From the NCBI GenBank assembly GCA_002162875.1, contig MABA01000009.1, positions 124,001-188,000 on the forward strand: a DNA stretch of 64,000 bases, given 5' to 3'. Each line of letters begins with the position of its first letter. The stretch's first letter is position 1. Shown here one piece after another: positions 4,821-34,831 of the stretch. This DNA is from Rhodobacterales bacterium 52_120_T64 (GTDB lineage: Bacteria; Pseudomonadota; Alphaproteobacteria; Rhodobacterales; Rhodobacteraceae). The notes below the pieces were generated by a model that did not search any database, had not been told where the DNA came from, and worked only from the letters and a program-made list of their open reading frames with translations. The position numbers and the translations under genes were made by a program.

Positions 4821-6213
4821 TCGAAAGGGCCAAAGGCAAGTCATTCGCCCACGCAGATATCGTTCCTGCACCAAGACAAATAACGATATCACCGGGCTGT
4901 GCATGTTTGCGAACAAACCCAGCGAGGTTGGTATCATCTTCCAAGGCGACGGCATTCCGGTGGCCATGATTTACTAAACCAGCCACCAGCGCATTCCCGT
5001 CAGCGCCGTCAATATGGTCTTCACCCGCGGCGTAAACATCGGTGATCGCAACAACGTCAGCGTCGTTAAAGCACCCGCAAAATTCGTCAAACAAATCCCG
5101 AAGGCGGGTATATCGGTGCGGCTGATGGATAGCGATTACGCGTCCGTCACTCGATTGTCTCGCAGCTTTCAGTACAGCAGCAATCTCGACTGGATGGTGC
5201 GCGTAGTCATCAATGATCGTCGCCCCGTTCCACTCACCAACGCGGGTGAAGCGGCGGTTCACGCCTCGGAACTCAGCCACCGCAGTCTTAATATCTTCGG
5301 CGCTAATTCCCAAATGTCGAGCAACGGAGATTGATGCTAACAAATTCATGACATTGTGTTCGCCGGGCATTGGCAAGCATAATCCATCGATCCGCTCGCC
5401 TTCAGATTTCAAGTCCACATCAAAGCAGGCAGAGCCGTCTTTGTATTCCAAATTTTCCGCCCGAACGTCAGCTTGCGGATTGAACCCATAGGTCACAACA
5501 CGGCGGTCATTTATCCGCCCAACGAGGCTTTGCACCTCAGGGTGGTCGATGCAACAAACCGCAACACCGTAAAACGGGATGTTTGAAACAAATGTATAGA
5601 AAGCTTCGCGCAGCGCATCGAAGCTGCCGTAATAATCCAAATGCTCGGCGTCGATGTTCGTGACAACGGCAATCGTAGCTGGCAAGCGGATAAACGTGCC
5701 GTCACTTTCATCCGCCTCAACGACCATCCAGTCGCTTTTACCCATCCGTGCATTCGAACCATAGGCATGAATGATCCCACCATTAATCACCGTCGGATCA
5801 ATCCCACCGCCATCCAGTAACGCCGCTACCATAGATGTGGTCGTTGTCTTGCCATGCGTTCCAGCCACCGCAATATTCGATTTCAACCGCATTAATTCTG
5901 CCAGCATTTCCGCACGTCGCACCACTGGCAAACCTTGGGCGTGCGCGGCGTCCAGTTCCGTATTGCCAGGCTTAATCGCGCTAGAGATTACGATCACTTC
6001 GGCACCCTCAAGGTTCTCGGCTTTCTGACCGACAAAAACCTTCGCTCCTTTTTGCTCAAGGCGCTCGGTGATTTCACTGCCGCGAAGATCAGAACCTTGA
6101 ACCGTATAGCCATGGCTAAGCAAAACTTCGGCGATACCGGACATACCGATGCCTCCGATACCAACGAAATGGATCGGACCAATGTCTTGCGGTAAGCGGG
6201 TCTGTGTATTCAA
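4813..6213 (-). CDS. murC: UDP-N-acetylmuramate-L-alanine ligase MurC
   Basis: Adds L-Ala to UDP-MurNAc using ATP, the first amino-acid addition of the Mur ligase pathway. The 466-aa product has the Rossmann-like N-domain ([16 protein letters not shown], residues 16-31), the ATP P-loop [10 protein letters not shown] at 118-127, the central-domain segment [10 protein letters not shown] and the C-domain motif DDYAHHPVE. The gene starts 4 nt after the murG stop and overlaps murB by 8 nt. Length is normal. Confidence 0.97.
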
Positions 6214-6217
6214 CGCA

Positions 6218-7303
6218 TTAATCCTTTTTCAATTTTTCAACCAGCGCTGCGAGCTCTTGCGTGGCTTCGGGTTTTCCCTGCGCTGCAGCCGCTTGCGCCA
6301 TCGCAACCGCACCTTCGGTGTCAGACAGAATAGCCTTGATATGTCCTGACAGTTTTTCGGCCGTCAACTCTGCTTCAGTTATCAAAAACGCACCACCAGA
6401 TTCAACCAACGCCCGTGCATTCGCTGTTTGTTCATCCCGAACAGCAATAGCAAACGGGATCAGGATGGACGGGCGACCGATTACTGTCAAATCCGCAATA
6501 GAACTTGCCCCGGCGCGCGATACAACAAGTTGCGCGGCGTCTATCCGGACAGGAACGTCGTCGAAAAACGGTTGAACATCAGCCGTTACACCCATCGCAT
6601 CATAAGCGGCAACAACGGTATCGTGATCAGCCGCCCGCGCTTGATGAGACACATTCAAATGCGCTTTCATCGCATCAGGCAGCAACGCGATCGCCTTGGG
6701 AACCACATCTGAAAGAATACTTGCTCCTTGAGATCCACCAATAACCAGAAGGTTCATCGGAAAATCACCGGGAAAATGATATGGCGCAGATGCATGTTCC
6801 AGAACCACACCACGTACGGGGTTTCCAGTATGTACTGCGCTTGTGTTCGTCGGCAGTTCGGTCGGCCAAACACTACACGCAACAACATCTACGCGCCTGG
6901 CAAACAATCCGTTTACACGCCCCAACACACCGTTTTGTTCATGGATCATCCGTGGTGCACCAAGAAGGCGCGCAGCCGTCATCGCCGGAATTGCAGGATA
7001 TCCGCCAAACCCTACAACCACTGTGGGGCGATCCGCTTTCATGCTACGCCATGCTGAAAACACGCCGCTTGCGATGCGAAACGGCATGGCCAATTTTGCT
7101 AAAGCCCCACCCCTTGATGGCGTCGCCGAAGACACGACCTCGCGTTTCACTGCATCAGGGAAACCGCCGGAATATCGGTTGCCGCGCGCATCCGTCGACA
7201 GTTTCACTCGCCAACCACGCGCCAACATCTCCTCGGCCAAAGCTTGCGCCGGGAACATATGCCCACCGGTCCCACCTGCCGCGATGATCAATAATGGAGC
7301 CAT
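6218..7303 (-). CDS. murG: UDP-GlcNAc:lipid I N-acetylglucosaminyltransferase MurG
   Basis: Peripheral membrane glycosyltransferase that converts lipid I to lipid II. The 361-aa protein has the two-domain GT-B fold signature: [10 protein letters not shown] (residues 10-19) in the N-terminal loop, [13 protein letters not shown] in the acceptor domain, and the UDP-GlcNAc-binding end [12 protein letters not shown] with GRPSILIPF. The start overlaps the ftsW stop by one nucleotide, so MurG is made directly after the lipid II-using polymerase FtsW. Confidence 0.97.
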
Positions 7304-20784: not shown

Positions 20785-20916
20785 TGTTTCCACAAATACC
20801 GCTAACTCACACAAATGTAGCTATTGTCGCTAAAACCCCAACTATCAACTCAGCTGCCTTTTGTTAATCCAGATGGAGTTCTCCAAATGGGTCACAGCAA
20901 AAGTTGCGTGTAAAAT

Positions 20917-21279
20917 ATGCGGATGGCCTATAAGCCGGATTTTGTTCCGGGCTTGCGCCCTTCGATGACCATTCGTCTGGGCCTGCCGTTACCAACAGGC
21001 TCTTGCAGCCAACCCGGATCGCTCGGTTGAAGACCTGCCTTGCAGCGCGCGATCCCTATTTGGCCTTGCTCCTGACGGGGTTTACCGTGCCGTTTCTGTT
21101 GCCAGAAACGCGGTGGTCTCTTACTCCACCGTTTCACCCTTACCCACGCAAGCGTAGGCGGTCTGTTTTCTGTGGCACTTTCCCTCGGGTTGCCCCGGCC
21201 GGTCGTTAACCGGCGTCACTTCTCCATGGAGTCCGGACTTTCCTCACCTTTTCAGGTGCAGCCATCCAGCCATCCGCAT
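20917..21279 (-). ncRNA. rnpB: RNase P RNA
   Basis: Catalytic RNA of RNase P, which trims tRNA 5' ends. Read on the minus strand it has the 5' conserved block GAGGAAAGTCCGGACTCCAT (near 21246-21227), the central block GGAGCAAGGCCAAATAGGG (around 21075-21057) and the 3' block GAACAAAATCCGGCTTAT (20947-20930). The ends are set by an 11-bp P1 helix pairing 20917-20927 with 21269-21279. Length near 363 nt is slightly short for a type A RNA but reasonable for this clade. Exact ends are approximate. Confidence 0.95.
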
Positions 21280-25848: not shown

Positions 25849-27336
25849 ATGACTGACCTATCCAAAATCACTATTGCCGGTGCGCGTGACGCAATGCGTG
25901 CAGGCGAGCTGACCTCGGTTGAACTGACACAAAGCTATCTGGACGCGATTGACGCGGCCGATACGCTGAACGCATTTTCAACCAAAACACCCGAGAAAGC
26001 CTTGGCGCAAGCCGCTGCTGCCGATGTTCGCATTCAGGTAGGCGATGCGCCTGACATGTGTGGCATTCCGCTGGGCGTCAAAGATTTGTTCTGTACCGAA
26101 GATATCCAGACGCAAGCTGGTTCGCACATTCTTGACGGCTTCAAACCAAAATATGAATCCACTATCACATCCCAGCTTTGGGACGCGGGTTCGGTGATGC
26201 TGGGCAAGTTGAACATGGACGAATTCGCGATGGGTTCCTCGAACGAGACATCCTATTACGGCCCAGTCACCAGCCCTTGGCGTCGTGAAGGCAGTGACAA
26301 GGCACTGACGCCCGGTGGTTCATCGGGTGGCTCGGCCGCTGCGGTGTCCGCTGACCTTTGCCTTGGCGCAACTGGTACTGACACGGGCGGTTCCATCCGC
26401 CAGCCTGCAGCCTTTACTGGCATCGTCGGCGTTAAACCAACATATGGTCGTTGCTCTCGCTGGGGTGTGGTGGCGTTTGCGTCATCCTTGGATCAGGCAG
26501 GTCCGATGGTCAAAACCGTTCGCGATTCCGCGATTATGCTGGAGGCCATGTCCGGTCACGACGCCAAAGATTCCACCTCTGCCGATCTGGCTGTTCCGAA
26601 TTTTGAGGCGGCACTTACTGGTGACATCCGTGGCAAGAAAATCGGCATCCCGAAAGAATACCGCGTTGATGGTATGCCTGCGGAAATCGAGGCGTTGTGG
26701 CATGAGGGTGCGGAAAAGCTGCGTGCCGCTGGTGCCGAGATCGTTGATATCTCGCTTCCGCACACCAAATACGCGCTACCAGCATACTACGTAATCGCCC
26801 CTGCCGAAGCTTCGTCCAATCTTTCCCGTTACGATGGCGTGAAATATGGCCACCGTGCCAAAATCAGCGCTGGCGAAGGCATTGACGATATGTATTCCCG
26901 CACCCGCGCCGAAGGGTTTGGATCAGAAGTCCAGCGTCGCGTCATGATCGGCGCATACGTTCTGTCAGCTGGTTTTTATGATGCGTATTACATCCGCGCC
27001 CAAAAAGTTCGCACGCTGATCAAACAGGATTTCGAAAAAGTCTTCGCAGATGGCATCGACCAAATCCTGACACCAGCAACCCCGAGTGCTGCTTTCGGGT
27101 TGGGTGAAATGAAAAATGCCGACCCGATCAAGATGTACCTTAACGATGTGTTTACGGTTACCGTAAACCTCGCTGGTTTGCCCGGTGTTTCGGTCCCAGC
27201 CGGCATTGATCATCAAGGGTTGCCTTTGGGATTGCAGCTAATCGGACAGCCGTGGGGCGAGGCCGATATGCTGAATACCGCCTATGCGCTCGAACAGGCT
27301 AGCGGATTTGATGCAAAACCTGTTAAGTGGTGGTAA
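25849..27336 (+). CDS. gatA: Asp-tRNA(Asn)/Glu-tRNA(Gln) amidotransferase subunit GatA
   Basis: Amidase subunit (495 aa) that releases ammonia from glutamine for tRNA transamidation. The Ser-cisSer-Lys triad is visible as Lys78 in GVKDLF, Ser158 in PGGSSGGS, and Ser182 in [11 protein letters not shown]. Further GatA-specific sequence is present ([18 protein letters not shown]). Immediately downstream of gatC and upstream of a lipoprotein gene by 22 nt. Confidence 0.97.
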
Positions 27337-27358
27337 TTTTACACCTGAGGGATATTTC

Positions 27359-28048
27359 ATGTTCAAAAAATCTGCGTTGCTGGTCACAGGACTGGCCCTA
27401 GCTGCTTGCGGTGATCAGCCGGTCGGCGGAACGGGATATTTCGATACGATTGCACCGACCACAACCGTGCAGGAACCAGTAAGGCTGGTTCCTGTCGCAA
27501 GCGAACAACCCGATATGACTGCCGCCCTAAGCGAAGCTGTCGAGTTGGCGATTGCGGAAGGAGAAGCAACTGAGCCAGAAATCGAAGTGGCGCAAATTGA
27601 TGAGGCGCCATCAGAAACAGAGGGTGAAGCCGATCCAGCTGATAGTGGCACCGCTGAAATCAGTACGGATGACGGAACGCTGAACTTGAACATCACATCT
27701 CAAGAGCAACAGAAAATCGAACGTGACAAAGCCGCAATCCTTTTGGCGGCAGCACGTGCGCAGTACGAGATTATCGAGCCGGGAGCGTTACCTAATATCG
27801 TGGCAGGCGTTAACATCGCACTTTATGCGCGCGAAACAACCAACGCCGTTGGCGACAATGTATACCGCCGCCCGATTATCAAAAGTCGTTTTTCTGCTGT
27901 CGAGTGTGGCAAGTTTGAAATACAGGACGACGCCCAACGATATTTCCTTGCAAACGATGGCCCCGAAAAGGATCCGCTTAACTTGGATCCGGACGGTGAC
28001 GGTTTTGCATGTCGTTGGTCACCGGAGTTCTATCGCTCTCTACGATAA
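27359..28048 (+). CDS. Lipoprotein with C-terminal Excalibur calcium-binding domain
   Basis: 229-aa predicted lipoprotein. The signal peptide ends in a lipobox (LALAAC, Cys17). A low-complexity Glu/Ala/Thr-rich linker covers about residues 40-120. The C-terminal region has the Excalibur pattern: Cys in VECGKF, then DPLNLDPDGDGFACRW, whose D-x-D-x-D-G loop is expected to bind calcium with a paired Cys. No role is assigned to such proteins in this group. Starts at ATG 27359 after gatA; a strong terminator follows. Confidence 0.8.
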   Translation: MFKKSALLVTGLALAACGDQPVGGTGYFDTIAPTTTVQEPVRLVPVASEQPDMTAALSEAVELAIAEGEATEPEIEVAQIDEAPSETEGEADPADSGTAEISTDDGTLNLNITSQEQQKIERDKAAILLAAARAQYEIIEPGALPNIVAGVNIALYARETTNAVGDNVYRRPIIKSRFSAVECGKFEIQDDAQRYFLANDGPEKDPLNLDPDGDGFACRWSPEFYRSLR

Positions 28049-28086: not shown

Positions 28087-28290
28087 TTAGACTTTTAGTT
28101 CGCCGGCACTTTGACGCCCATCGCGCCCTTCGACCATTTCAAATTCGATCGGTTGATCGTCCTGCAAACCTTGAAGCCCGGCTTCTTGAAGTGCTGTGAT
28201 GTGAACGAAAACATCTTTGCCGCCATCTTCTGGTTGAATAAAACCGAAGCCTTTTTCGGCGTTAAACCATTTAACAGTTCCCTTTGCCAT
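28087..28290 (-). CDS. cspA: Cold-shock protein, CspA family
   Basis: 67-aa OB-fold RNA chaperone. RNP1 motif is KGFGFIQ (residues 13-19) and RNP2 is VFVHI (about 27-31); the N-terminus MAKGTVKWFN is canonical. The gene is monocistronic. The 270-nt upstream gap to the next plus-strand gene leaves room for the long 5' leader usual for cold-shock genes, though I did not recognise a cold box. Confidence 0.95.
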   Translation of the reverse strand: MAKGTVKWFNAEKGFGFIQPEDGGKDVFVHITALQEAGLQGLQDDQPIEFEMVEGRDGRQSAGELKV

Positions 28291-28562
28291 CTCTGACTAT
28301 TCCTCCGTGGTATTTGCCCAAACGAACCTGCCGGGCTTGTAACGAGGCAAACGTTAACAGATGTGGCAAATTCGCGCAAATAAAACAATAAATTCCGATT
28401 TTGGGTCCTCGGATTTAACGCCAGAAAAGTGGCAGTTAGAAAACCTCGCCGGATTTCCATGGCGTTTTTCCCAGTTTCGGCGTTCCGCACTGGAAAGCAC
28501 GCACCACAGGTAATATGTTACATACAACCAAAGCGTTACCCAAATCGAAACAGGAGAGGCAC
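28291..28562. promoter_or_regulatory. Divergent promoter region, cspA and the TelA operon
   Basis: 272 nt without a convincing gene. It must hold the cspA promoter and leader (minus) and the promoter of the XpaC/TelA unit (plus). An AGGAGAGG ribosome-binding site at about 28551-28559 precedes the TTG start at 28563. No clear operator was recognised. Confidence 0.4.
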
Positions 28563-28661
28563 TTGTCCGCTAACACCTTGCAATGGATAGCTTTTGCGGT
28601 TCTCGTAGCCATAATATGGACCGTCGCCGCCGGCGCTTTTGGCGACGGGATTTCCCTATGA
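28563..28661 (+). CDS. Small single-span membrane peptide (32 aa), coupled to XpaC-like gene
   Basis: Open frame of 33 codons starting at TTG 28563, preceded by a strong RBS (AGGAGAGG) at correct spacing. The peptide begins SANTLQW, has a hydrophobic segment WIAFAVLVAIIWTVAAGAF (about residues 8-26) and ends GDGISL. Its TGA overlaps the ATG of the next gene (ATGA at 28658-28661), the usual sign of coupling. No family is recognised. It may be a real small subunit or a translational leader. Confidence 0.55.
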   Translation: MSANTLQWIAFAVLVAIIWTVAAGAFGDGISL

Positions 28662-29560
28662 GAAAACGATTTGGTGGCAAATTTAGCCCGTCTGACTCAA
28701 CGTCAGACAAAGACACCCCCCCTGTAAATGCATTTCGAAACCGCCGTGTTGCCCCATCATACCTGCGGGCAAACATGCTGTTTCTGGCCCCCCTTCCATT
28801 ATTGTTCAGCGGCATCGGCGAACTTCGTGCTGGTGATGCCCTTGGCATGATAAGCGAATTCGGGGCACTTTCCATCCTTCTACTTTCCGCATGGATGCTT
28901 CGCGAAGGTATGAAAGCCGAAACCGCATACGAGGATCGTAAAATTGCCCGCCCTCCGGCAATCCCGCGCAAGTTGTTTGCTGCCGCTCTATCGGGAATCG
29001 GGGTGTTCACCGCAGCCGCTCTCGGGTGGGGGCAACCAATGATCAGCGCCGCGCTATTCGGGATATTGGCCTCTGGTGCGCATGTATTTGCTTTCGGGTT
29101 GGACCCGATGAAAAAGAAGGGCATGTCCGGCCACAACGCATTTGACAACGAGCGTGTCGCAAAAGCTGTTGAGAAAGCCGAAGTGACATTGGCAGAATTG
29201 TACGCAGCCTCTGCCCGTTTCGGCGACCGCGCCTTGGAAGCGCGGATCGAGCGTCTGGGCGCATCTGTTCGCGAGGTTTTTCGCGCGGTTGAGGATGATC
29301 CGCGCGACTTAACCCGTGCCCGTAAATTTCTGGGCGTGTATTTAACTGGCGCCAGGGATGCGACGGTCAAGTTTGCAGATATTTATTCCCGAAACAGATC
29401 CACCGAGGCCCGAGATGATTACATAGCTTTGATCAGCGATCTGGAAATTAGTTTTAACACACACCGCGACGTGCTTTTGCTTGATGACCGCCAAGATCTG
29501 GACATCGAAATCGAAGTGCTGCGTGATAGACTACAACAAGAAGGGTTGAAAAACCGCTAA
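28658..29560 (+). CDS. XpaC-like membrane protein (5-bromo-4-chloroindolyl phosphate hydrolysis family)
   Basis: 300-aa protein starting at ATG 28658. The N-terminal part is basic, followed by paired hydrophobic segments at about residues 40-83 and 103-150, then a long charged, helical C-terminal half (DNERVAKAVEKAEVTLAEL onward) suited to coiled coil. XpaC-family proteins are typically encoded next to TelA, as here (15 nt apart). The historic enzymatic name is probably misleading; a membrane scaffold role beside TelA is more likely. The same-frame extension upstream is rejected because it overlaps the coupled small gene. Confidence 0.75.
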   Translation: MRKRFGGKFSPSDSTSDKDTPPVNAFRNRRVAPSYLRANMLFLAPLPLLFSGIGELRAGDALGMISEFGALSILLLSAWMLREGMKAETAYEDRKIARPPAIPRKLFAAALSGIGVFTAAALGWGQPMISAALFGILASGAHVFAFGLDPMKKKGMSGHNAFDNERVAKAVEKAEVTLAELYAASARFGDRALEARIERLGASVREVFRAVEDDPRDLTRARKFLGVYLTGARDATVKFADIYSRNRSTEARDDYIALISDLEISFNTHRDVLLLDDRQDLDIEIEVLRDRLQQEGLKNR

Positions 29561-29575
29561 CCGAGGAGACACATT

Positions 29576-30766
29576 ATGTCTGACGAAACCCGCGCCAAAG
29601 CCTTAACAGCCTTGATAGACGCCGAGGTTGTTACAGCCGCATTGCTGCCTGCGGCAAAGAGCGATCTAATCGTGATCGACGTCGCCAGCGCCGAGGAAAA
29701 AGCCGCGGTCGGCACCCGCATGGCCGAGTTGGACATGGAGGATACGCAGTCCATCATCCGTTTTGGCTCAACGGCTCAAGCCGAGCTGCAGGTTATTTCG
29801 CAAGAGATGTTGGCAGGCGTTCGCAATAAGGATGTCGGGCCAGCGGGCAGCAGCCTGCGCGATATGGTTTCATCCATCCGTGGTTTCTCGATCGAAGAGT
29901 TAGACCCGAACCGCAAATTAAGCTGGTGGGAACGTTTGATGGGCAAGACCCAACCGATGGCGGCCTTCATGGCGAAATACGAAGATGTACAGGGCCAGAT
30001 CGACAACATCACTAATGAACTTTTGGCGCATGAAACAACCCTGTTGAAAGACATTAAATCGCTGGATAAGCTTTATGAAAAGACCCTCGATTTCTATGAC
30101 GAACTGGCACTTTATATTGCTGCGGGCGAAGAGAAAATTCGCATTCTGGACACGGTCGATATTCCAACGATGGAAAAGACGGTGGCAAATGCGCCTGAAG
30201 GCGACGGTGTGATCCTTGCGCAGGAGTTGCGCGATCTGCGCGCCGCGCGCGATGATCTTGAACGTCGGGTGCATGATCTGAAACTGACACGCCAAGTGAC
30301 TATGCAGTCTCTGCCCTCCATCCGATTGGTCCAAGAAAACGACAAATCCCTAGTAACGAAGATTAACTCGACATTGGTTAACACCGTACCGCTGTGGGAA
30401 ACGCAGTTGGCGCAGGCGGTCACCATTCATCGTTCGCGCGAGGCCACCGAAGTCGTCCATGACGCCAATGACTTGACGAATGAGCTGCTGAAATCCAACG
30501 CGAGTAATCTGAAGCAGGCAAATAAAGTCATCCGCGAAGAAATGGAACGCGGGGTCTTTGATATCGAGGCCATCAAACAGGCCAATACCGATTTGATCGA
30601 AACTATCGAGGATAGCTTGCGAATTGCTGACGAAGGCAAAGCCAAACGTGCCGAAGCCGAAAAAGAGCTGAAGGTGATGGAAGCAGAGCTGAAAACCACG
30701 CTTGCCGCCGCCAAGGCCAAGGCGACAGGGGCCGGCGCGGCTGTTGGCGAAAGCGCTGGTGACTGA
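29576..30766 (+). CDS. telA: Toxic anion resistance protein, TelA/KlaA family
   Basis: 396-aa cytoplasmic, mostly helical protein. It has family segments SIRGFSIEELDP (about residues 101-112), WWERLMGK (117-124), DIKSLDKLYEKTLDFYDEL and VQENDKSLVTKINSTLVNTVPLWE (split across about 261-285), with coiled-coil heptads at about 210-245 and in the C-terminal third. TelA relatives give resistance to tellurite and some antibiotics and have been linked to envelope stress. An Ala/Gly-rich tail ends the protein. RBS GAGGAG is present before the ATG. Confidence 0.9.
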   Translation: MSDETRAKALTALIDAEVVTAALLPAAKSDLIVIDVASAEEKAAVGTRMAELDMEDTQSIIRFGSTAQAELQVISQEMLAGVRNKDVGPAGSSLRDMVSSIRGFSIEELDPNRKLSWWERLMGKTQPMAAFMAKYEDVQGQIDNITNELLAHETTLLKDIKSLDKLYEKTLDFYDELALYIAAGEEKIRILDTVDIPTMEKTVANAPEGDGVILAQELRDLRAARDDLERRVHDLKLTRQVTMQSLPSIRLVQENDKSLVTKINSTLVNTVPLWETQLAQAVTIHRSREATEVVHDANDLTNELLKSNASNLKQANKVIREEMERGVFDIEAIKQANTDLIETIEDSLRIADEGKAKRAEAEKELKVMEAELKTTLAAAKAKATGAGAAVGESAGD

Positions 30767-30817
30767 TACACTCGGTCCGCCATATAATTGCGTGGGCCAT
30801 CCAAACCAAAGGCAGAT

Positions 30818-31702
30818 ATGAACATTCTAACCCGCATATTACCAGTTGCGTTAATTCTGTTTGTCGCCGGATGTGTCGGGCCGTATCCGATTACACCGTC
30901 TGATACAGGAAGCGATCTGCAACGCGTGTATGCTGCCGCCGAAGCAAACATGCGGGGTTTGGGCAAGATGCGGACTGAGTTCAGCCCGAAGGATGCGCCA
31001 TTCACCTACGGCGATCTTGTGCGGAATTTCGAACGCATCGCCCTTCGAAATGAATACCGCATAACCGACGGACGTTTCGTTGCAACTGAATCGCAGACGT
31101 TCTTGCGCCGCTGGCAAGGCCCTGTGCGCATCGCGACGATCAACGGCGTCAGCACACCGAAAACAACGGTCCAGCGCAACAATAGTGAAGTGGCCAAATA
31201 CACCCGCCGGCTTGCACACCTCACAGGGCTAGATATGCGAACAACGACGGCAAAGGACGCCAATTTTCTTGTGCTATTCCTGAACGCGGAAGAACAGGTC
31301 GAGTTTGCCGATACCCTGCCGGACATCTTGAACGACATCAGCCCCGCCGTTGTCGATGCCTTTCGTAACAGCCCGCGAAACATCTTCTGCGCCGCGTTTG
31401 CCTTCACCAGACCGTGGCAGAAAGGTGTATATGGTAACGTATTGATTTTGGTTAAATCGGAGCATAGCGATTTCATGCGAAAATCCTGTATCCACGAAGA
31501 AATGGCGCAGGCGATGGGGTTAACGAATGACAGTCTCGACGCCCGCCCGTCGATTTTCAACGACGACGAAGAATTTGCATTCCTGACCAGACACGACGAA
31601 ATTCTATTACGAATGCTGTATGATCCCCGCCTTAAAGCGGGTATGGAAAGCTATGAAGTAATTCCTCTTTTACCCGCTATTGCACAGGATGCGACGCCGT
31701 AA
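30818..31702 (+). CDS. DUF2927 lipoprotein with metalloprotease-like HEE motif
   Basis: 294-aa predicted lipoprotein (lipobox LFVAGC, Cys19). The C-terminal half contains SCIHEEMAQAMGLTNDS (His226-Glu-Glu228), resembling the zinc-binding helix of gluzincin-type proteases but with HEEMAQ rather than HExxH, and a following FNDDEEFAFLT segment. DUF2927 has no assigned function. It lies 51 nt after telA and 27 nt before the SPFH gene, so it is probably co-transcribed. The start at 30818 places the signal peptide correctly. Confidence 0.82.
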   Translation: MNILTRILPVALILFVAGCVGPYPITPSDTGSDLQRVYAAAEANMRGLGKMRTEFSPKDAPFTYGDLVRNFERIALRNEYRITDGRFVATESQTFLRRWQGPVRIATINGVSTPKTTVQRNNSEVAKYTRRLAHLTGLDMRTTTAKDANFLVLFLNAEEQVEFADTLPDILNDISPAVVDAFRNSPRNIFCAAFAFTRPWQKGVYGNVLILVKSEHSDFMRKSCIHEEMAQAMGLTNDSLDARPSIFNDDEEFAFLTRHDEILLRMLYDPRLKAGMESYEVIPLLPAIAQDATP

Positions 31703-31729
31703 GGGGGAACTTGTTTTAAGGAGAAACAT

Positions 31730-32824
31730 ATGGGTATTTTTGATTTCTTAACTGGCGAATTTATTGACGTCATCCACCACACTGACGAAACTAACGATAC
31801 GATAGTTTGGCGTTTTGAGCGTGAAGACCACGAGATTAAGTACGGTGCCAAATTGACCGTTCGCGAAGGTCAGGCCGCTGTATTTGTCCACGAAGGACAA
31901 CTAGCCGATGTGTTCACACCGGGCATGTACATGTTGGAAACCAACAACATGCCGATCATGACCACATTGCAACACTGGCATCACGGTTTTGAAAGCCCGT
32001 TCAAATCAGAAGTCTACTTCGTAAACACCACTCGTTTCCAGGACCTGAAATGGGGTACAAAAAACCCGATCATGTGCCGCGATCCAGAATTTGGCCCTGT
32101 GCGCATCCGCGCATACGGCACTTATACGATCCGCGTTTCTGACCCCGCGCAATTCCTGCGCGAAGTGGTTGGAACGGACGGTGAATTTACCACTGACGAG
32201 ATCACCTATCAGATCCGTAACAACATCGTGGCGCGCGCCTCGGCTGCGATTGCATCGAGCGGTATTCCGGTGCTGGATATGGCCGCCAATACAATGGATC
32301 TTGGTAAACTAATCGCCGCCAAAGTCAGCCCCGAGTTGGCCGAGTTCGGTATCGAAATGCCGGCGTTTTACATCGAAAACATCTCGCTGCCGTCGGCTGT
32401 AGAGGCGGCGATGGACAAGCGGACCGCCATCGGAGTTGCCGGTGATCTGGGGCGCTACACGCAATTTTCTGCGGCTGAAGCGATGACAGCGGCGGCATCC
32501 AACCCTGCCGGTGGCGGCATGGGCGAAGGGCTTGGTATGGGAATGGGCATGGCGATGGCCGGCCAAATGGCGCAAGGTTTGGCACAATCCGCGGTTGTCG
32601 CACCACCGCCGCCCCCAGCCGAAAAAGTTTGGCATATCGCTGCCAATGGCGCGACGACAGGTCCTTTTTCACGGGCAAGCCTTGGGCGTATGGCTGGTGA
32701 AGGTTCCTTCACGCGGGGGTCATTGGTCTGGACTGCGGGCCAAGACGGTTGGACCAAAGCCAACGACATCAACGAGCTGGCGCAATTGTTCACCGTAATG
32801 CCACCGCCCCCACCTGCTGCATAA
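31730..32824 (+). CDS. SPFH-domain protein with C-terminal GYF_2 domain (YdjI/virion-core-like)
   Basis: 364-aa protein. The N-terminal 240 residues form a stomatin/flotillin-like SPFH domain of the YdjI type (VREGQAAVFVHEGQ near 41-54; YTIRVSDPAQFLREVVG near 128-144). A Gly/Met-rich linker (about 262-285) and a Pro run lead to a GYF_2 domain at about 297-352 (VWHIAANG, TGPFS, LVWTAGQDGW), which binds proline-rich partners. The C-terminus is again PPPPPAA. In Bacilli, SPFH-GYF or SPFH-zinc-ribbon genes sit with PspA-like proteins. RBS AAGGAG precedes the start. Confidence 0.85.
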   Translation: MGIFDFLTGEFIDVIHHTDETNDTIVWRFEREDHEIKYGAKLTVREGQAAVFVHEGQLADVFTPGMYMLETNNMPIMTTLQHWHHGFESPFKSEVYFVNTTRFQDLKWGTKNPIMCRDPEFGPVRIRAYGTYTIRVSDPAQFLREVVGTDGEFTTDEITYQIRNNIVARASAAIASSGIPVLDMAANTMDLGKLIAAKVSPELAEFGIEMPAFYIENISLPSAVEAAMDKRTAIGVAGDLGRYTQFSAAEAMTAAASNPAGGGMGEGLGMGMGMAMAGQMAQGLAQSAVVAPPPPPAEKVWHIAANGATTGPFSRASLGRMAGEGSFTRGSLVWTAGQDGWTKANDINELAQLFTVMPPPPPAA

Positions 32825-32833
32825 GGCACGACC

Positions 32834-33931
32834 ATGACCGAAGAACACCGTTTCCCCTGCGAAGTATGCGGGGCCGATATGCGGTTTGACCCGACTATGA
32901 CCGCACTTAACTGCGATCATTGCGGTGCAAGCGAGGCGATTGACGTTAGCCCATGGGCGAGCGGCGCGATCAAGGAAATGGATTTCAACGCGGCACTGTC
33001 GTCGGTCGTCGCTGAATCGGAAGTGGAAGAAGTCAGAGTCACCAAATGCGAAAGCTGCGGTGCTCAGGTTGAATTCCTAGAAAATGACCACGCCACAGAA
33101 TGCCCATTCTGCGCCACACCTGTGGTGGTAGGAACAGGTACGCACCGCCATATTAAGCCACGCGGTGTGATGCCCTTTGCCCTATCCGAAAAACAAGGGC
33201 GCATTGCGATGAACGACTGGTTGGGCAAGCTGTGGTTCGCCCCAAATGGCCTGAAAATATACGCGCGGGCGGGTCGTAAAATGCAGGGCATATATGTGCC
33301 CTATTGGACCTACGATGCCGATACCAAAAGCCGATATGCGGGGCAACGCGGTACGATCTACTACGTAACAAAAACTGTTCGCGTAATGGTGAACGGCAAA
33401 CCCCAAACGCGCAAGAAAAAGGTTCAAAAAATCCGCTGGACACCGGTAAGCGGGCGCGTGGCGCGGTTTTTCGATGACGTCCTTGTCCTTGGCTCAACAA
33501 GCTTACCGAAAAAATACACCGATGCGCTGGCTCCATGGGATTTATCGGCGTTAGAGCCATATAACGCTGAATATCTGGCAGGATTTCGTGCTGAAGGATA
33601 TTCGGTCGATCTGGCAGACGGCTATACGGAGGCCCGCACCATCATGGATCGCCGGATTGTGCGCGACGTGAAATTCGATATTGGCGGGGATCGACAGCGG
33701 ATCACAAACCTGGACACATCCATCAAAGATGTGACGTTTAAGCACATACTGCTGCCTGTCTGGCTGGCTGCTTACAAGTATCGCGGGAAAACATTTCGAT
33801 TTGTGGTGAATGCCCAAAACGGATCCGTAAAAGGTGAACGCCCCTATTCCGTCTGGAAGATTACGCTTGCTGTGATAACCGCCGCACTATTTGCAGCGGT
33901 TATCGGCGCAATCTACTACGCCAGCAAGTAA
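32834..33931 (+). CDS. Double zinc-ribbon protein with C-terminal membrane anchor
   Basis: 365-aa protein. Two zinc ribbons are visible: Cys9/Cys12/Cys27/Cys30 and Cys72/Cys75/Cys90/Cys93, the first of the TFIIB-like pattern CxVCGA..CDHCG. A central domain (about 110-330) has conserved YVPYWTYDA and KHILLPVWLAAYKYRG segments as in YdjG-like proteins. The C-terminus has one hydrophobic helix (about 343-361), so the soluble part is probably cytoplasmic and membrane-tethered. It is 9 nt after the SPFH gene, which points to a common function. Confidence 0.8.
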   Translation: MTEEHRFPCEVCGADMRFDPTMTALNCDHCGASEAIDVSPWASGAIKEMDFNAALSSVVAESEVEEVRVTKCESCGAQVEFLENDHATECPFCATPVVVGTGTHRHIKPRGVMPFALSEKQGRIAMNDWLGKLWFAPNGLKIYARAGRKMQGIYVPYWTYDADTKSRYAGQRGTIYYVTKTVRVMVNGKPQTRKKKVQKIRWTPVSGRVARFFDDVLVLGSTSLPKKYTDALAPWDLSALEPYNAEYLAGFRAEGYSVDLADGYTEARTIMDRRIVRDVKFDIGGDRQRITNLDTSIKDVTFKHILLPVWLAAYKYRGKTFRFVVNAQNGSVKGERPYSVWKITLAVITAALFAAVIGAIYYASK

Positions 33932-34168: not shown

Positions 34169-34831
34169 TTAGATCGAGAGGAATGCTTCCAAGCTTTCGC
34201 GATCCAGAATCTCGATCACACCTTTTTCGACCGAAATGAAGCCTTTGTCCCGCAATACGCCCAACTCCTTGTTTATGGTCTGACGCGAGCAACCAACAAC
34301 TCCAGCCAAATACGATTGCGAGTCAAAAATCGTGCTGTTTCGTTCGGAGAACATTAACAAATAGGCGCATAGCCTGTGATCAACCGGAGAGTTCCGGTCA
34401 ACCAGTTTGAAATAATTCAGCTGTAACAAATGCCCGTGAAACACCTTCATCAAATTTTTGACGAAATCAACGGTCCCTAGCGCCTCGACCAACAACTTTT
34501 TCGGGCAAAATAACAAGGTCGTGTTCGCCGTCGCCTCGGTGGTGGCAGCGCACCGCTGTTCGGTTATCGCTTCAGTTTCGCCGATAATGGCACCTACGCC
34601 TGCACGGGCAAAAAAAGTTTCCCGGCCATCTTCGCCCAAATACAGAATCTCCACGGATCCTTCGGCAATAAGGTACATGCCCAATGCGCGTTCACCTTGT
34701 ACCAGAAAATGTGTCGAAGTGTCGTAATGCAATACGCTGCATCGATCGATGAATTCTTTTCGAAAATCCTTGGGAAGGCCGTCGAAAATTTGTGCCTTCA
34801 TCATCTGCGGAAATCTGTCACTAACTTCCAT
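34169..34831 (-). CDS. Crp/Fnr-family transcriptional regulator
   Basis: 220-aa protein with an N-terminal cyclic-nucleotide-binding-like beta-roll (FLVQGERALGMYLIAEGSVEIL in the region of residues 43-64; GAIIGETEAI near 79-88) and a C-terminal helix-turn-helix (SYLAGVVGCSRQTINKEL, about 173-190). The N-terminal Cys cluster of Fnr is absent and the cAMP-binding RxS motif is not seen, so ligand and oxygen-sensing type are unknown. The recognition helix SRQTINK differs from Fnr (SRE/T-x-x-SR), so it is unlikely to read the Fnr box found at 20771. Confidence 0.88.
   Translation of the reverse strand: MEVSDRFPQMMKAQIFDGLPKDFRKEFIDRCSVLHYDTSTHFLVQGERALGMYLIAEGSVEILYLGEDGRETFFARAGVGAIIGETEAITEQRCAATTEATANTTLLFCPKKLLVEALGTVDFVKNLMKVFHGHLLQLNYFKLVDRNSPVDHRLCAYLLMFSERNSTIFDSQSYLAGVVGCSRQTINKELGVLRDKGFISVEKGVIEILDRESLEAFLSI

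Follow-up and report, generated by a model that had tools for sequence, protein, structure and literature searches.

Here we describe a unit of six genes, all on the + strand, that occupies positions 28563-33931 of a 64,000-nucleotide stretch of DNA from Rhodobacterales bacterium 52_120_T64 (contig MABA01000009.1; hereafter the window). In order, it encodes a 32-residue membrane microprotein, an XpaC-like membrane protein, TelA, a DUF2927 lipoprotein, a protein with SPFH and GYF_2 domains, and a membrane-anchored protein with two zinc ribbons. The gene order is conserved, the unit consists of two separable halves, and the microprotein is under selection. On this basis, we lean towards reading the unit as an envelope-stress system that resembles the phage shock protein (Psp) system and would work without PspA, with XpaC and TelA taking PspA's place.

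The gene order was followed in one genome per genus of Rhodobacteraceae (149 genomes). TelA is present in 133 of these genera, and Band_7_1, the SPFH domain family, matches in 134 genomes, 132 of which were counted as strong; the weak or partial matches of G200 and G263 were excluded from the co-occurrence count. TelA and a strong SPFH match occur together in 131 genomes, TelA alone in two, SPFH alone in one and neither in 15 (Fisher p 1.5e-17, a value that overstates independence because the genomes are related). In 122 of the 131 genomes with both, the SPFH gene follows TelA on the same strand at a distance of no more than 6 kb. The remaining nine are three contig breaks (G205, G223, G288) and six apparently real splits (G145, G159, G203, G224, G226, G251), and in all six XpaC stays paired with TelA, as does SPFH with the zinc ribbon. 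The best 80 loci among the TelA matches listed, which include Roseovarius, Sulfitobacter, Loktanella, Amylibacter, Paracoccus and Defluviimonas, were inspected gene by gene: XpaC precedes TelA in 80/80, and DUF2927, SPFH and the zinc ribbon follow in 72, 77 and 71, respectively. Among the nine loci without a zinc ribbon, seven end no more than 224 nt from a contig end and another, L130, no more than 682 nt. Gaps of at least 400 nt occur in a good part of these loci, mostly between SPFH and the zinc ribbon. DUF2927 matches 142 of the 149 family genomes, a count that is not specific to the unit since second copies are common.

Outside the family, we used 142 alphaproteobacterial genomes, almost every one from a family of its own. 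TelA occurs in 13 of them and the zinc-ribbon profile matches ten, six at full length; in all six, TelA and SPFH adjoin the zinc-ribbon gene (p 1.7e-7, given TelA in 13/142). Two of the six are Rhodobacteraceae and four come from four other families. The loci of these four (L077, L078, L079, L085) read XpaC-TelA-SPFH-zinc ribbon and lack DUF2927. Thus, the expectation of the sequence-only reading, an earlier account of the window made from its letters, that the order extends beyond close relatives is borne out by the family genomes, the 80 loci and these four families. DUF2927, which that reading had placed among the fixed members, is instead an add-on, because the four-gene form exists without it.

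In a sample of the phylum (349 genomes), the zinc-ribbon profile matches 45 genomes, some by a single ribbon only. Twenty-two of the matched genomes belong to other classes; six single-ribbon ones were left out and 16 analysed, representing six families, with eight loci from one genus. SPFH is encoded upstream of the zinc ribbon in 15 of these 16 loci; the remaining one is truncated by the end of its contig. The same pair is found in named records of Vibrio, Comamonas, Tsukamurella and Enterococcus, in the last accompanied by a TPM gene, as in ydjGHI. Since the halves occur apart elsewhere and a four-gene form lacks DUF2927, XpaC-TelA and SPFH-zinc ribbon are older than the unit, which arose when these halves were joined in Alphaproteobacteria, with DUF2927 as a later addition.

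Each half has a described counterpart in Bacilli. In Bacillus subtilis, YdjI together with YdjG and YdjH is required for bringing PspA to the membrane (PMC8581546), and YdjG bears zinc ribbons (PMC9239133, PMC11237479). The unit shares with pspA-ydjGHI a Band-7/SPFH protein of the YdjI type, a double zinc-ribbon transmembrane protein of the YdjG type and the setting of envelope stress. In contrast to the Bacillus system, it has neither PspA nor the TPM protein YdjH, and has XpaC-TelA, DUF2927 and the microprotein; moreover, its SPFH protein ends in GYF_2 and proline runs and not in a zinc ribbon. The sequence-only reading had assigned the two proteins to the YdjI and YdjG types that accompany PspA in Bacilli, and this assignment stands: a Band_7_1 SPFH gene adjoins a double zinc-ribbon transmembrane gene. 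The zinc-ribbon protein has no Pfam match above cut-off and only ribbon-level relatives, none convincing, in a sequence search of the PDB; its cysteines (C9 C12 C27 C30 and C72 C75 C90 C93) are invariant in 15/15 aligned homologues.

The other half corresponds to xpaC-yaaN of B. subtilis and lmo1966-lmo1967 of Listeria, which likewise combine XpaC with TelA, the former in the sigmaW regulon and the latter with a nisin and tellurite mutant phenotype; unlike our unit, they are described as two-gene units without SPFH-zinc ribbon or DUF2927. A table of sigmaW targets holds both pspA-ydjG-ydjH-ydjI and xpaC-yaaN, as separate units under one sigma factor (PMC3498285), and mutation of lmo1967 (TelA) in Listeria raises susceptibility 4-fold to nisin and 2-fold to tellurite (PMC12791056). 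A survey of PSP systems (PMC11237479) names neither TelA nor XpaC in its main text, and in one library of Creative Commons-licensed papers we found none that joins TelA with SPFH and, among the matches listed, none that joins 'toxic anion resistance' with SPFH.

Despite the likeness, the unit is Psp-like and not a Psp system, because a search for PspA/IM30 (PF04012) at E 0.001 found nothing in the window's genome, and none of the unit's proteins matches it. TelA and XpaC themselves lie far above the curated Pfam cut-offs (356.4 bits vs 30 for PF05816, and 80.9 vs 29.8 for PF10112). The model of TelA is weak (predicted local distance difference test, pLDDT, 71.6; predicted template modelling score, pTM, 0.52), with helices at residues 128-204, 208-324 and 330-383. 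We take from it a predicted fold of long helices and nothing further. No PspA or ESCRT-III row stands among the structural matches listed for this weak model, and a sequence search of the PDB gave no convincing relative of TelA.

In the reading that we prefer, a scaffold on the cytoplasmic side of the membrane would consist of the SPFH-GYF protein together with the double zinc-ribbon protein and its membrane anchor, like the one that YdjI and YdjG probably form in B. subtilis. Its client would be TelA, a protein of long helices that membrane-bound XpaC holds and that the scaffold would bring to the membrane, which is the role of PspA in Bacillus. The one-helix microprotein, whose gene overlaps that of XpaC, would probably regulate or stabilise XpaC. 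In Rhodobacteraceae, the addition is a lipoprotein predicted to face the periplasm, whose protease-like fold without zinc ligands would probably serve as a sensor that binds proteins or envelope ligands, and the SPFH subunits would probably form chains in which GYF domains grip proline tails. It is tempting to speculate further, on grounds that we consider tentative, that the whole is a PspA-independent, envelope-spanning machine for membrane protection, in which XpaC-TelA would be an interchangeable second class of client for the SPFH/zinc-ribbon platform, SPFH would polymerise through GYF-polyproline contacts, the microprotein would gate XpaC, and the zinc-less, matrixin-like DUF2927 would act as a periplasmic sensor or binding module.

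The chaining of SPFH has comparative support. GYF domains bind proline-rich peptides, and the sequence-only reading had already raised the idea of self-docking on the protein's own proline run. Among the SPFH homologues of the family, a PPP motif stands just before GYF_2 (within 25 residues) and just after it in 70/70 (rows of 340 aa or less were left out, from 79 to 70). Outside the family, 15 of the 23 SPFH proteins compared carry GYF_2, each of the 15 with a PPP-bearing tail at its end, while PPP is missing from the last 60 residues of all eight with another C-terminus; these eight end in HTH_17 (four), a SHOCT-like domain (three, below cut-off) or a zinc ribbon (one, below cut-off). Because domain and tail are gained and lost together, the data suggest an interaction of the two, in the same subunit or across subunits; alternatively, both might serve a common outside partner. 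More generally, the same SPFH domain is followed by different adaptors, namely GYF_2, HTH_17, SHOCT-like or double zinc ribbon (L247, L250, L254, L256, L257).

The first gene of the unit is a selected microprotein. A small hydrophobic open reading frame (ORF) ends near the start of XpaC in 74 of 75 XpaC genes, compared with 49 of 1440 random places, and the 75th gene (L130) has a clear relative slightly below the threshold; ten of 85 XpaC matches had been left out as shorter than 270 aa or with less than 150 nt upstream. In 39 nearest-neighbour pairs of 65-98% identity, the ratio of nonsynonymous to synonymous differences (pN/pS) is 0.30 in frame and reaches 1.01 and 2.16 in the two alternative frames. 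The family loci L113, L091 and L114 have the microprotein once longer XpaC start extensions are allowed. In the window, its TTG start is preceded by AGGAGAGG, and its length is presumably short enough to escape ordinary gene finding. Two of the four loci from other families have candidates at the same place, L077 (a TTGA overlap with XpaC) and L078 (18 nt ahead of the ATG), and L079 and L085 have no small hydrophobic ORF at the XpaC start; because of these candidates, the microprotein may be older than Rhodobacteraceae. L081 has a different hydrophobic ORF above the threshold, without the family pattern. The hydrophobic windows of XpaC lie at residues 62-80, 106-124 and 128-146, the last two at or within the Pfam match. 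A second XpaC-like match is seen upstream of TelA in L152, L191, L194, L197 and L207, and this match is accompanied by a small hydrophobic ORF of its own in L194, L197 and L207. The record of L197 is titled Enemella evansiae, an actinobacterial name, and bears a Rhodobacteraceae-like module; it is probably mislabelled.

The DUF2927 lipoprotein is predicted to adopt a matrixin-like fold. Its model is confident (pLDDT 90.9, pTM 0.86), and all 50 VIA-align matches listed are structures of matrix metalloproteinases (MMPs) or karilysin, the best with a Z of 11.6 (karilysin, MMP-7) over ~150 residues at a root-mean-square deviation of ~3, covering DUF2927 residues about 70-271; Foldseek gives a best E of 2.1e-3 with probability 1.00, and nothing at E 0.001 or below. 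We aligned the window's protein with 56 of 66 proteins of 260-340 aa, from 74 matches. The lipobox Cys19 is kept in 56 of these 57. Instead of the zinc motif HExxHxxGxxH, the family has EExxQxxGLxND, with E227, E228, Q231, G234, L235 and D238 in 57/57 and N237 in 55/57, and EExxQxxG is also kept in 10/10 further DUF2927 genes, distant paralogues included. The three zinc-binding His of matrixins are thus replaced by E227, Q231 and N237, in a register read from spacing, helix position and fold; a profile comparison holds this register from the G onward at a score that is not significant and lies below shuffled controls. Because a matrixin-like predicted fold is combined with this replacement, DUF2927 is probably a pseudoprotease, an inactive protease fold without zinc, and an unusual metal site is possible.

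Kinship with matrixins receives no support from sequence profiles. There is no Pfam match to Peptidase_M10 in the 57 members or elsewhere in the window's genome, hhalign against Peptidase_M10 gives a probability of 0.1% (score 11.8, against up to 16.6 for shuffled controls), and a sequence search of the PDB found no convincing relative. An active zinc protease, considered for the 'HEE' in this helix, was rejected: His226, the first residue of the HEE helix pointed out in the sequence-only reading, is present in 48/57, the spacing sets E227 at the place of the first zinc His, and a Peptidase_M10 match is missing. DUF2927 is not named in any paper that we found in the Creative Commons-licensed literature. 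Among the variants at this position are L109, where an ORF without any Pfam match (5889-6881) occupies the place of DUF2927, and an alphaproteobacterial metagenome-assembled genome with a tandem of three DUF2927 genes after TelA (L184:3228-5940).

Several observations weigh against a single Psp-like unit in which XpaC-TelA stands for PspA. TelA is near SPFH-zinc ribbon in none of the 16 loci from other classes (it was not searched elsewhere in those genomes); XpaC-TelA occurs without SPFH nearby in L081 and L006; and in L082 (5765-9800), L083 and L086 the order is TelA, a large protein and XpaC, the middle protein of L082 having SBP_bac_11 and VWA domains. As each half is found without the other nearby, neither needs the other everywhere. 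Within the family, DUF2927 is missing from eight of the 80 loci, and L152 is a true exception, with neither SPFH nor the zinc ribbon in place. The records of Paracoccus ferrooxidans (L288) and P. denitrificans (L289) have TelA-DUF2927-SPFH-zinc ribbon and no XpaC was found adjoining TelA, so XpaC is not the constant member that had been proposed; a search of the P. ferrooxidans locus found neither microprotein nor XpaC. The structural matches listed for the TelA model are generic helical bundles below the tool's caution line. PspA is above cut-off in 25 of the 149 family genomes, in 3/16 without and 22/133 with TelA (p 0.73); because the two are not anticorrelated, the phyletic pattern gives no signal of replacement, and on this measure the proposal that TelA replaces PspA was set aside as unsupported. 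Finally, a sigma-70 promoter-like match at 30759-30788 lies just 5' of DUF2927, and a second transcript starting there is possible, although the count of such matches is within chance expectation (five vs 4.7; for terminators, seven vs 8.8).

Other readings were weighed against the preferred one. The unit could be a quality-control or assembly platform for membrane proteins, serving respiratory or photosynthetic complexes in normal growth rather than under stress, which we regard as unlikely. Band-7 and TPM proteins have been proposed as chaperone-like assembly factors (PMC11237479), and in L110 (3917-4816) and L116 (11097-11639) the SPFH and zinc-ribbon genes are separated by cytochrome b561-like genes. 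However, the Bacillus relatives belong to a stress regulon (PMC8581546, PMC3498285). The b561-like insertions are also sporadic, in two of ten scanned proteins.

We consider it improbable that the unit is a locus for resistance to toxic oxyanions such as tellurite, with TelA as the key gene and the others in support. A TelA is also what the window shares with the tellurite locus of R. sphaeroides, which we take to belong to the same bacterial family. The chromosomal telA of that species is given as a tellurite determinant (PMC6955997, citing O'Gara 1997), and TelA relatives turn up on plasmids, in 595 of 72,556 records. Against this, TelA is near-universal in the family (133/149 genera) and not patchy, it is linked with SPFH/zinc-ribbon genes of the membrane-stress type, and in the Listeria mutant the effect on nisin exceeds that on tellurite (PMC12791056). 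That two independent operons came to lie side by side in a single event in an alphaproteobacterial ancestor, and stay together through co-expression only, with no shared complex, seems to us very unlikely: each half is found without the other nearby and six genomes have them split with neither lost, but they are rarely apart (three discordant of 149 genera, at completeness 84, 76 and 78%) and are co-regulated in B. subtilis despite being separate units (PMC3498285).

All six same-strand genes named by the sequence-only reading exist, as ORFs with short gaps between them (-4, 15, 51, 27 and 9 nt in order), and the flanking genes on both sides lie on the opposite strand (Table 1). The divergent upstream region, where a promoter is expected, has no sigma-70-like match on the + strand. 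No unit protein has an NCBIfam match above cut-off. Membership in anti-phage defence was rejected on PADLOC, as none of the five proteins other than the microprotein matches its models. Upstream of the unit, the window also holds a class A RNase P RNA (20915-21277, - strand) and a gene (27284-28048, + strand) whose product has an Excalibur-like C-terminus below threshold.

Table 1. Features of the six-gene unit and its surroundings, in window coordinates
Feature	Position	Strand	Basis
Cold-shock-like ORF, left neighbour	28087-28290	opposite strand	named by eye
Divergent upstream region, expected promoter place	28291..28562	+	layout
Membrane microprotein, 32 aa, single-pass	28563..28661	+	sequence; TTG start, ATGA overlap with XpaC
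XpaC-like membrane protein (PF10112), three hydrophobic segments	28658..29560	+	Pfam 1.6e-22
TelA (PF05816), mainly long helices	29576..30766	+	Pfam 1.8e-106; predicted model
DUF2927 (PF11150) lipoprotein with Cys19 in a VAGC lipobox; fold predicted to be matrixin-like	30818..31702	+	Pfam 1.5e-54; model
E227-E228-x-x-Q231-x-x-G234-L-x-N237-D238 motif, at the HExxHxxGxxH place	31496..31531	+	alignment
SPFH (Band_7_1, PF13421) and GYF_2 (PF14237) protein, YdjI type	31730..32824	+	Pfam 1e-100 and 2.7e-17
Poly-proline run preceding GYF_2	32603..32617	+	PPP conservation in homologues
GYF_2 domain, residues 301-350	32630..32779	+	Pfam
C-terminal poly-proline run	32801..32815	+	PPP conservation in homologues
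Double zinc-ribbon protein with C-terminal transmembrane helix, YdjG type	32834..33931	+	cysteine conservation; hydrophobic 343-361
Crp/Fnr-like gene, right neighbour	34169-34831	opposite strand	Pfam scan

What is new here is that a known scaffold of the Bacillus type is paired with a different partner, an overlooked microprotein and a lipoprotein predicted to be shaped like a protease. For DUF2927, the predicted fold offers a first structural clue. To our knowledge, TelA and XpaC have long been without a mechanism. Their fixed linkage to the SPFH/zinc-ribbon pair would give both a concrete role, by analogy with the Bacillus counterpart, and suggests that the scaffold platform is general and that its client may be swapped.

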